DNA from: Burkholderiales bacterium
GTDB lineage: Bacteria > Pseudomonadota > Gammaproteobacteria > Burkholderiales > Burkholderiaceae_C
Direction of reading: 5' to 3'
Assembly (NCBI GenBank): GCA_017302655.1
Contig: JAFLDE010000008.1
Span: 1-64,000, forward strand
Length of the DNA: 64,000 nt
Of the stretch, positions 16,066 to 19,169 are shown piece by piece. Under the pieces are notes generated by a model. The model ran no database searches and had not been told where the DNA came from. It saw nothing but the letters and a program-made list of their open reading frames with translations. A program made the position numbers and the translations under genes. The first letter of the stretch is position 1. The number at the start of each line of letters is the position of its first letter.

Positions 16066-17463
<1,398 letters not shown>

Positions 17464-17523
17464 GAGCCCGAATCTGGGGTCTTGGCTTCGCCGAAGCCTT
17501 CGGCTTTCAACCCCAGACCCCGA
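17464..17523. other. Hairpin-rich spacer after argH
   Basis: After the argH stop codon TCTGGGGT (from about 17473) and ACCCCAGA (ending about 17518) form an outer stem, and a smaller GGCTTC/GAAGCC hairpin lies inside. There is no T run. This may act as a transcription end for argH or belong to the element that follows. Confidence 0.35.
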
Positions 17524-17573
17524 CCCCCTTTTCTTTGGTCGCGCCCAAAGAAAAGGGGGGAAAAGAAATGCGC
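17524..17573 (+). repeat. Left palindromic inverted repeat
   Basis: The 50-base arm begins CCCCCTTTTCTTTGG, turns at TCGCG, continues CCAAAGAAAAGGGGGG and ends AAAAGAAATGCGC. It can fold on itself as a long hairpin and also pairs with the right arm 350 bases away. Confidence 0.85.
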
Positions 17574-17923
17574 CCGAATGCGGCCCTCGGCCTAGGGCCG
17601 TCGGGCCAGGCGGTGCATCGCTCAGACTGCAAAGAGCCCAACGAGCCAGCTAACGACCGAGGCGCTAACCGCCGGGCCGCAATACGGCCCGGACTCACGA
17701 AGGTGGCAGGCCACCGCCCAGCGGTGATGGACGGAGCGGAGAGACGGGGCATGGCGCACCGGGCTCGTGGCACCGAGTGCATCGCGCCCCCAGTGGCGCC
17801 CGCAGTCCTCGCTGCTGCCGAGGACCTGGCTCGGCCCGTACCCGGGCCGACCGGCGCGCAGGTCTTCGCAGGGGCACTCAAGCGACGGTCGAAGGCAGAC
17901 CAAGCAACGCCTGGGTATTCCAA

Positions 17924-17970
17924 GCGCATTTCTTTCCCCCCTTTCTTTGGGCGTGACCAAAGAAAGGGGG
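17924..17970 (-). repeat. Right palindromic inverted repeat
   Basis: The 47-base arm is the reverse complement of the left arm. The differences are TTT for TTTT, AAA for AAAA (twice) and one G/A change at the hairpin turn (TCACG in place of TCGCG). The self-palindrome is kept despite these changes. Confidence 0.85.
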
Positions 17971-18014
17971 TCCGGGTGCAGGGGTGGACAGCCCCTGCGG
18001 GCTGTTGAGAGGCG

Positions 18015-19169
18015 ATGCAGTCCAGATGGATCGCCCACCTCGACATGGACGCCTTCTACGCGTCCGTCGAACTGCTGCGCTACCCGGAGCTGAAGGGCCA
18101 GCCGGTGGTCATCGGCGGCCGGCGCGACCACGCGCCGCGCGAGACCCCACAGGGCCGTAGCTACGCGCGGCTCAAGGACTACACCGGCCGCGGCGTCATC
18201 ACCACCGCCACCTACGCGGCGCGCGCCTTTGGCGTGCGTTCGGGCCTGGGCCTGATGAAGGCCGCCCAACTGGCCCCAGATTGCGTGCTGCTGCCCGTGG
18301 ACTTTCCGGCCTACCGCGCGATGAGCCGGCGCTTCAAAGCAGCCGTGGCGGAGATTGCGCCCCTCATCGAGGACCGCGGCATCGACGAGATCTACATCGA
18401 CCTCAGCCAGCACGCCCGTGAGCGGCAGGGCGCCGGGCACGACCCGCTGGCAGGGCTCAAGGAGGTGGCGCAGGAGATCAAGAACAACGTGCGCGCCGCC
18501 ACCGGGGGCTTGAGCTGCTCGATCGGTCTGGCACCGAACAAGCTGCTGGCCAAGATGGCCAGCGAGCTTGACAAGCCCGATGGCCTGAGCCTGGTCCGGC
18601 CCGAGGACCTCGCCGGGCGCATCTGGCCGCTGCCGGTGCGGGCCATCAACGGCGTCGGCCCCAAGGCGGCGGCCAGCCTGGAGGCGCTCGGCATCGAGCA
18701 CATCGGTGAGCTGGCCGCCGCCGATCCAGCCTGGCTGGTCGAGCGCTTCGGCGCCAGTTACGGCCGCTGGCTGCACCAAGCTGCCCATGGGCAGGACGAA
18801 CGACCGGTGGTGACGCACAGCGAGCCGGTGTCGATCAGCCGCGAGACCACCTTTGAACGCGACTTGGACGCCAGGCGCGACCGCCACGAACTGGGTCGCA
18901 TCCTCACCGAGCTGTGCGACCAACTCGCGGCGGACCTCGCGCGCAAGGGCTACGCAACGCGCACCGTTGGCATCAAGCTGCGCTTTGAAGGCTTCCGCAC
19001 AGTGACGCGCGACCTGACCCTGGCCGAACCGGTGCACGGAGCGGCGGCACTGCTGCACGGCGCGCGGGAATGCCTGAAGCGCGTGCAGTTCGACGCCCGC
19101 ATGCGCCTCCTGGGCGTGCGCGCCGGCAAGCTGGTGCATGCGAACGAAGCCAACCATGAGGCACGGTGA
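18015..19169 (+). CDS. dinB: DNA polymerase IV (Y-family)
   Basis: This is a low-fidelity translesion polymerase of 384 residues. Catalytic acids are D10 in HLDMDAFYAS and D124/E125 in GIDEIYIDLS. The helix-hairpin-helix part INGVGPKAAASLEALGI and the little-finger domain (about 240-375, ending RLLGVRAGKL) are present. Between residues 37 and 60 it carries roughly 12 more residues than common DinB proteins. The last residues show no clear QLxLF beta-clamp motif. A GAGAGG ribosome binding site lies just before the ATG. No LexA box could be recognised by eye; the upstream region is the palindrome-bounded element. Confidence 0.92.
   Translation: MQSRWIAHLDMDAFYASVELLRYPELKGQPVVIGGRRDHAPRETPQGRSYARLKDYTGRGVITTATYAARAFGVRSGLGLMKAAQLAPDCVLLPVDFPAYRAMSRRFKAAVAEIAPLIEDRGIDEIYIDLSQHARERQGAGHDPLAGLKEVAQEIKNNVRAATGGLSCSIGLAPNKLLAKMASELDKPDGLSLVRPEDLAGRIWPLPVRAINGVGPKAAASLEALGIEHIGELAAADPAWLVERFGASYGRWLHQAAHGQDERPVVTHSEPVSISRETTFERDLDARRDRHELGRILTELCDQLAADLARKGYATRTVGIKLRFEGFRTVTRDLTLAEPVHGAAALLHGARECLKRVQFDARMRLLGVRAGKLVHANEANHEAR

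Follow-up and report, generated by a model that had tools for sequence, protein, structure and literature searches.

A mobile, hairpin-ended element of about 540 bp, counting its outer hairpins, lies at the junction of argH and dinB in the window, i.e. the whole 64,000-nt stretch that was analysed (GCA_017302655.1, contig JAFLDE010000008.1, positions 1-64,000, forward strand; all coordinates refer to it). The element is probably tolerated in operons as a translated bridge, a reading to which we give a probability of roughly 0.55 and in which translation is inferred from the sequence. The bridge reading is suggested by the placement of the copies, by a frame coupled at its start and stop, and by the avoidance of stop codons. 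The copies in the same genome, the relatives elsewhere and the empty sites in sister species identify the element as dispersed, non-autonomous and MITE/REPIN-like, being short and multi-copy with terminal inverted repeats.

Extent of the element and its copies in the genus

The features of the locus are given below, with matches to R1, a covariance model of the end (hairpin plus tail). The names argH and dinB are those of the original prediction, and their products are presumed from their sequences.

16066..17463, + strand: upstream gene, argH
17460..18008, + strand: stop-free frame of 182 codons; its GTG shares the bases GTGA with the argH stop, and its TGA lies 6 nt before the dinB ATG
17465..18003, + strand: the mobile element in full, from one outer hairpin to the other (AGCCC...GGGCT); similarity among copies aligned with their flanks ends near AGCCC / GGGCT
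17465..17523, + strand: left outer hairpin, type A (AGCCCGAATCTGGGG...CCCCAGACCCCGA)
17524..17559, + strand: left palindrome, a CTTTGG...CCAAAG hairpin (R1 match 17523-17572, 53.5 bits)
17560..17573, + strand: left purine tail, mirroring the 3' arm of the palindrome
17574..17923, + strand: interior, type I, common to eight copies in this genome
17672..17692, + strand: interior hairpin, present as originally predicted, with its 8 pairs unchanged in 8/8 type I copies (alignment columns 221-241)
17924..17936, - strand: right tail, an inverted copy of the left tail
17937..17970, - strand: right palindrome (R1 match 17925-17971, 49.7 bits)
17971..18003, - strand: right outer hairpin, type B (GCAGGGG...CCCCTGC)
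18015..19169, + strand: downstream gene, dinB

The palindromic, mutually inverted ends that had been predicted are real. The arms of the left palindrome (17524-17541 and 17542-17559) form an 18-nt inverted repeat of 94%, and those of the right palindrome (17937-17950 and 17957-17970) a 14-nt repeat without mismatch. The left and right ends are in turn complementary to each other, at 82% over 61 nt (arms 17502-17562 and 17933-17993). The core TTTCTTTGGGCG, allowing up to one mismatch, occurs three times in the window against 0.19 expected, each time inside one of the element's two ends. The predicted extent of 447 bp proved too small, as alignment of the copies with their flanks revealed two hairpins at each end, the CTTTG/CAAAG palindrome and an outer hairpin beyond it, which takes the element to approximately 17465-18003.

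The window's own genome (G000; 4.43 Mb in 203 contigs) holds 15 two-ended copies and, in addition, two single ends. Eight of the copies, that of the window included, are full-length type I elements of 82-100% identity, with further places in the genome matching in the ends only; one copy (C123) is divergent, and six are of type II (437-563 bp), the interior of which is itself a long inverted repeat. The outer hairpins, of kinds A and B, occur in the left/right combinations A/B, A/A, B/B and B/A, which suggests exchange between ends. The left outer hairpin of the window copy is 24 bases longer than that of the C159 copy.

Across the six genomes of the genus, R1 matched 32 times in G000, 33 in G003, 64 in G004 and 8 in G005, with three weak matches in G001 and none in G002, although the latter carries a divergent pair (L103). 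Two loci of G003 (L086 and L087) share the same flanking gene ends and represent a duplicated chromosome segment that carries the element. Two long elements contain an extra central segment, L318:1037-2372 in G005 (1336 bp), with a 145-codon lipoprotein-like frame, and L319:1326-2675 in G004 (1350 bp), with a 270-codon frame; the segments are possibly cargo or nested insertions. Both loci were considered as autonomous elements and were set aside, as the additional length consists of these extra segments.

Insertion sites and spread beyond the genus

The argH and dinB genes adjoined each other without an insert in all four other genus members in which the two are neighbours (G002, G003, G004 and G005); in G001 only dinB was matched. 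These empty sites indicate that the element was inserted at this junction in the lineage of G000. Other junctions, for which the gene names are presumed from the sequences and not taken from annotation, were compared in the same way. The ftsW-murG junction, occupied by C46 in G000, was empty in G004 and G005 (ATGA at the junction) and in G002 (GTGA), and the gaps of 100 and 85 nt in G001 and G003 are too short to hold the element. The nirB-nirD junction, occupied in G000 by C21 (L033:7362-7814), was empty with ATGA in G002, G004 and G005, and in G003 (L092/L374) it carried an element with a different interior. The difference in interior implies either two independent insertions or an exchange of interiors between fixed ends, and the junction may accordingly be a hot spot or a place of such exchange. 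Taken with the identity among copies, the empty sites support mobility well.

The original prediction had proposed a search for target-site duplications, and no general duplication was found over 28 copies: the similarity between a copy's own left and right flanks was 11.86, against 11.99 for mismatched pairs, with flanks that were trimmed by motif and not always exactly. Two copies stood out in this test, C176 (P 0.011) and G4b (P 0.004), where each of the two junctions of G4b carries CGTTGC. Target duplication may thus be present in a few copies, or it may have decayed. A duplication covering the ATGA at ftsW-murG and nirB-nirD was considered and rejected, since the flank test gave no general support and the left and right NTGA often differ. 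In the element G004:C39:50348-50807 (L094), CGTTGC stands directly at both junctions as a possible target duplication, which is not a rule in the other copies.

Searches of wider scope were performed for the end and for the whole element. The exact 24-mer of the window end had no match in GTDB contigs. The more general palindrome TTTCTTTGCTTCGCCAAAGAAA, a 22-mer, was present in at least 117 stretches of these contigs, and the 80 matches listed include Variovorax, Polaromonas, Herbaspirillum, Undibacterium, Silvimonas, Neisseria and Aggregatibacter. With 22 candidates scored in each genome, R1 matched 58 of the 274 genomes that were sampled across the class, G000 among them. A wide search at E 1e-20, with 5 candidates scored per genome, returned nothing outside G000 among 120 genomes; looser searches within the genus did find relatives outside G000. 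The plasmid and phage collections contained no match to the element.

R1 was also run on 68 sources: the window itself, plus the 67 loci that remained of the 80 numbered L104-L183 after 13 short or edge-cut ones had been omitted. It gave 167 matches, many of them weak and to the reverse strand of an end. Thirty-five inverted pairs, with ends a few hundred bases apart, were read by hand in 33 of the 67 named-species loci; in the other 34 no partner end was seen, whether because it lay beyond the locus edge, had diverged or was missing. The pairs spanned 349-774 bp with the exception of one 1.7-kb pair (L150), and in L129 the two ends were in the opposite order. The end module is widespread in the Gammaproteobacteria in the wide sense, including the Burkholderiales.

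No gene was called by the gene finder inside any of the 52 pairs of the genus. Outside the genus a gene call reached into five of the 35 pairs, and one of the five was the gene within L150:1077-2779 (Polaromonas), presumably an IS30-like transposase by its sequence. This locus was examined as an autonomous element, and the gene between its ends was taken as a later insertion; a long pair in G382, examined likewise, proved to be two neighbouring elements. No autonomous parent with the same ends was recognised among the 35 pairs outside and the 52 inside the genus.

Literature searches with the sequences and by topic returned no name or paper for the end module, and the literature on coupling, polarity and MITEs returned none of this kind, as judged by title. 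The elements thus appear to be undescribed, a statement as firm as the literature searches made.

Operon placement and the coupled frame

In four genus genomes, 46 of 52 two-ended copies lay between co-directional genes according to our own gene finder (G000 15/15, G003 13/16, G004 15/18, G005 3/3). The baseline in the window was 31 of 48 neighbour pairs (binomial P 9.5e-5). The 52 copies were paired from the R1 list, some G004 copies with a single R1 end being left out; L086 and L087, both of G003, derive from a single duplicated segment. Outside the genus no co-directional preference was observed (13 of the 25 pairs that had a gene call on either side, against a baseline of 112/163; the other 10 of the 35 pairs had no neighbour call on one side or the other).

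On the strand of gene direction, a stop-free frame passed through the whole element in all 15 G000 copies, against 9/15 on the opposite strand. In 13 of the 15 this frame was coupled, being open throughout and beginning with a start codon that shares the bases NTGA with the stop of the upstream gene; in C175 and C128 the start lay 4 and 12 bases beyond the first base of that stop. At the other end, the frame's stop overlapped the downstream start (NTGA) in ten of the 15 (C118, C21, C179, C122, C123, C160, C199, C161, C128 and C46), an overlap that is partly expected, since genes starting with ATGA are common anyway. In this count the nirD start of C21 was read at ATGAACGAC, where the gene finder's start lies further in, and C175 was left out, though with the TTG start given by the finder it would be the eleventh copy. 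In C159, C176 and C175 the frame stopped inside the right outer hairpin, and in C2 about 10 nt past the downstream start.

We propose that a non-autonomous hairpin-ended element enters overlapping stop/start junctions, where ribosomes finishing the upstream gene would reinitiate on the start codon that overlaps its stop, read through the element as far as the next start codon or just short of it, and then pass to the downstream gene. The element would in this way stand in for the tight stop/start coupling that its insertion broke. Being translated, it would shield the transcript from Rho-dependent polarity, so that the operon would tolerate it, and the copies that let ribosomes pass would be those seen today. 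The steps of ribosome passage and of Rho action are inferred from what is established on polarity and coupling.

The frame was compared with several expectations. Stop codons were fewer than expected in three families: none against 4.85 in type I (8 copies, P 0.024), one against 7.1 in type II (6 copies, P 0.023) and one against 13.2 in the G004 family (16 copies, P 0.005), where the P values are soft because related copies are not independent. In this test variable columns were permuted among positions with an equal consensus base and indels were ignored; L099 and L319 were omitted from G004. The type II consensus had two sense frames free of stops, one of which passed and the other did not (P 0.31), and a near-mirror antisense frame gave 0.027.

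As shuffling of the whole element overstates the contrast, reliance was placed on shuffles of the interior with the ends fixed (200 shuffles, elements of 800 bp or more omitted). Elements with an open frame numbered 15/15 in G000 (null mean 8.5, maximum 13), 13/17 in G004 (5.5, maximum 12), 2/2 in G005 (0.7, maximum 2) and 15/34 outside the genus (6.9, maximum 11); those of G003, 13/16, fell inside the null range (mean 8.4, maximum 14). The total number of open frames exceeded the null maximum outside the genus (20 against 15), in G000 (28 against 20) and in G003 (23 against 19), and in G004 it lay within the null range (13, maximum 16).

Some of these counts speak against the bridge reading. 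GC-rich interiors were often open by chance in the shuffles, the G003 elements and the G004 total stayed inside the null range, and the coupled frame was open in only 6 of 13 co-directional copies in G003, 4 of 15 in G004 and 1 of 3 in G005, so that coupling is nearly complete in G000 only. The missing co-directional preference outside the genus and the lack of a general target duplication count against the bridge as well. One alternative is an ordinary MITE/REPIN-like selfish repeat, stop-poor because GC-rich and left at operon junctions by purging elsewhere, with no role for translation. In its favour, the mobile family is well shown, 8.5 of 15 copies are expected to be open by chance in G000 and G003 lies within its null. 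The interiors of co-directional copies, moreover, are of mixed orientation in the sister species (G003 6 and 6 with one tie, G004 6 and 8 with one unclear), and a strict orientation rule for the family was abandoned for this reason. What this explanation leaves aside is the start of the open frame on the upstream stop in 13/15 copies and its end at the downstream start in 10/15, as well as the avoidance of stops in three families. All 14 classifiable G000 interiors also point one way relative to the genes, albeit with a small margin in some type II copies (C46: 366 against 343 bits), and this uniform orientation is unexplained unless orientation was selected through the open frame. We consider the purely selfish repeat a possible but rather doubtful account.

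The open frame might also be taken for a real small protein gene on a mobile cassette, with its own coupled start and stop. This is very improbable, as the dN/dS of the frame was 1.07 for the eight type I copies and 0.81 for the 13 of 17 G004 copies that are open, the two interior types encode different peptides, four element translations had no Pfam or NCBIfam match and tblastn found no match to the element peptides in plasmids. The original prediction of no credible gene holds in so far as no protein family was matched and dN/dS is near 1, but it overlooked the stop-free frame coupled to both neighbours. Under the bridge reading, the peptide appears to be unselected, while freedom from stops and the hairpin ends appear to be kept.

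Small repeats that are compatible with translation have been described. ERIC and other enterobacterial repeat units resemble the present element as small mobile repeats with open frames; the frames described there are fused to other genes, whereas here the frame is a separate cistron that overlaps both neighbours (PMC2759123). A MITE of 178-235 bp inside an operon, with conserved direct repeats, is covered in a MITE review; the present element is likewise located inside operons, but it shows no general target duplication and has a coupled frame, a feature unmentioned in what the review's account of that MITE offers (PMC10969869). The Rickettsia palindromic elements (RPEs) are also palindromic and compatible with translation (PMC10969869), but they lie inside coding genes, unlike the stop/start junctions occupied here.

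If the bridge reading is true, translatability is a means by which selfish DNA can persist within operons and cause no polarity. The insertions, with their matched empty sites in sister species, also form a natural series on the tolerance of operons for untranslated intercistronic RNA.

End structure and the mobilising enzyme

The ends were collected by motif (81), and 76 of them were aligned. In the aligned ends 7 of the 10 pairs of the end hairpin were changed on both sides, although the altered arms of three of the five ends left out mean that the selection favours the end structure. The paired length changes that had been predicted, TTT/TTTT with AAA/AAAA, were confirmed across copies. Rather than a single copy lacking conservation and covariation, the outcome that would have spoken against the original prediction, there are 15 copies, relatives in other genomes and a covarying hairpin.

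The tail that follows the hairpin mirrors the 3' arm and is hence a parallel complement of the 5' arm, as in CTTTTCTTTG with CAAAAGAAAG, CTTTCTTTG with CAAAGAAAG, TTTCTCTTTG with AAAGAGAAAG, and CTTTCTTCG with CAAAGAAGG. Over 75 distinct ends the mirror relation had a mean of 0.55 mismatches per 8, against 3.05 for a direct copy. Because the collecting motif favours A-rich tails, part of the absolute fit is built in. Re-pairing of tails at random, a control free of that effect in which the ends are nevertheless related to each other, gave a mean of 1.02 mismatches of 8, the lowest of 5000 trials being 0.85. Copying yields direct or inverted repeats, not mirrors. An intramolecular triplex or H-type pseudoknot contact (loop CGCC with tail GGCG) would therefore be the natural explanation of the mirror tail. 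The tail would be an unusual case of covariation pointing to a triple-strand or pseudoknot contact.

These observations raise the alternative of a structured intercistronic RNA, selected for its fold through stability, processing or attenuation and spread through operons. The 447-nt stretch folds 10.4 sd below its shuffles (z -10.4, with 0/100 shuffles as low), the end hairpin carries compensatory changes, and operon placement within the genus and the single orientation in G000 are what such an RNA would show. Of the 166 pairs predicted for the interior fold, however, just 7 had changed at both positions, with an unfavourable covariation term, and an interior RNA structure was rejected for this reason. 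Like ends and sites also carry very different interiors, even at nirB-nirD in G000 and G003, no Rfam family exceeded its gathering cut-off (the best of 13 weak matches reached 18.5 bits against 49.4), and the co-directional bias is absent outside the genus. The structured RNA that had been offered as one possibility is thus borne out for the ends but not for the interior, and as an explanation of the whole element it is improbable.

The double palindromic ends invite comparison with systems mobilised by Y1 transposases. REPINs are inverted REP doublets with RAYT transposases, and, as described there, they share with the present element two palindromes in inverted copies, hairpin folding, compensatory changes and dispersal in one genome (PMC3116915). 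In REPINs tens of bases separate the palindromes (PMC3116915), against hundreds here. The present element also differs in its two hairpins per end, its mirror tail and the lack of an R1 match in 39 Y1-transposase loci. The GTAG/CGTC-tagged REPs and TIRtrons, from the features outlined for them, have similar double palindromic ends and dimers (PMC3733652). The Y1 loci checked here have no such end. None of the 76 aligned ends showed GTAG or CGTC as an unpaired tag where the hairpin begins at its foot, and some of them carry GTAG inside the paired arm.

A Y1 transposase gene is present in all six genus members. R1 had no match at E up to 1 in the 39 Y1 loci examined from the genus and its family, a sample that takes in a minority of the family's Y1 matches, and linkage to a RAYT in cis was rejected, since no ends were seen near the Y1 genes checked. 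A Y1 enzyme may act in trans on the ends, and our default assumption is that some transposase works on the hairpin ends in this way. The original suggestion of a MITE-like element moved in trans is upheld in its first part by the 15 two-ended G000 copies, the relatives elsewhere and the empty sites, while for its second part neither a general target duplication nor a linked transposase was found. We tentatively picture mobile hairpin elements that pose as cistrons, settling where a stop and a start overlap and keeping a stop-free frame coupled at either side while their peptide drifts, in which the mirror tail would be a structure that a mobilising enzyme could read; we hold this fuller picture with less confidence than the translated bridge.

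Two minor observations concern Y1 genes themselves. Inverted GGGGTCAGGTCTTTCA-like sequences lie on either side of a Y1-transposase gene at L046:870-2100; they resemble the GGGGWSAS ends of TIRtrons as outlined in PMC3733652. The genome G020, of the same family as G000, has 20 Y1_Tnp matches, several of them full-length with an equal score, perhaps reflecting a recent IS200-like expansion.
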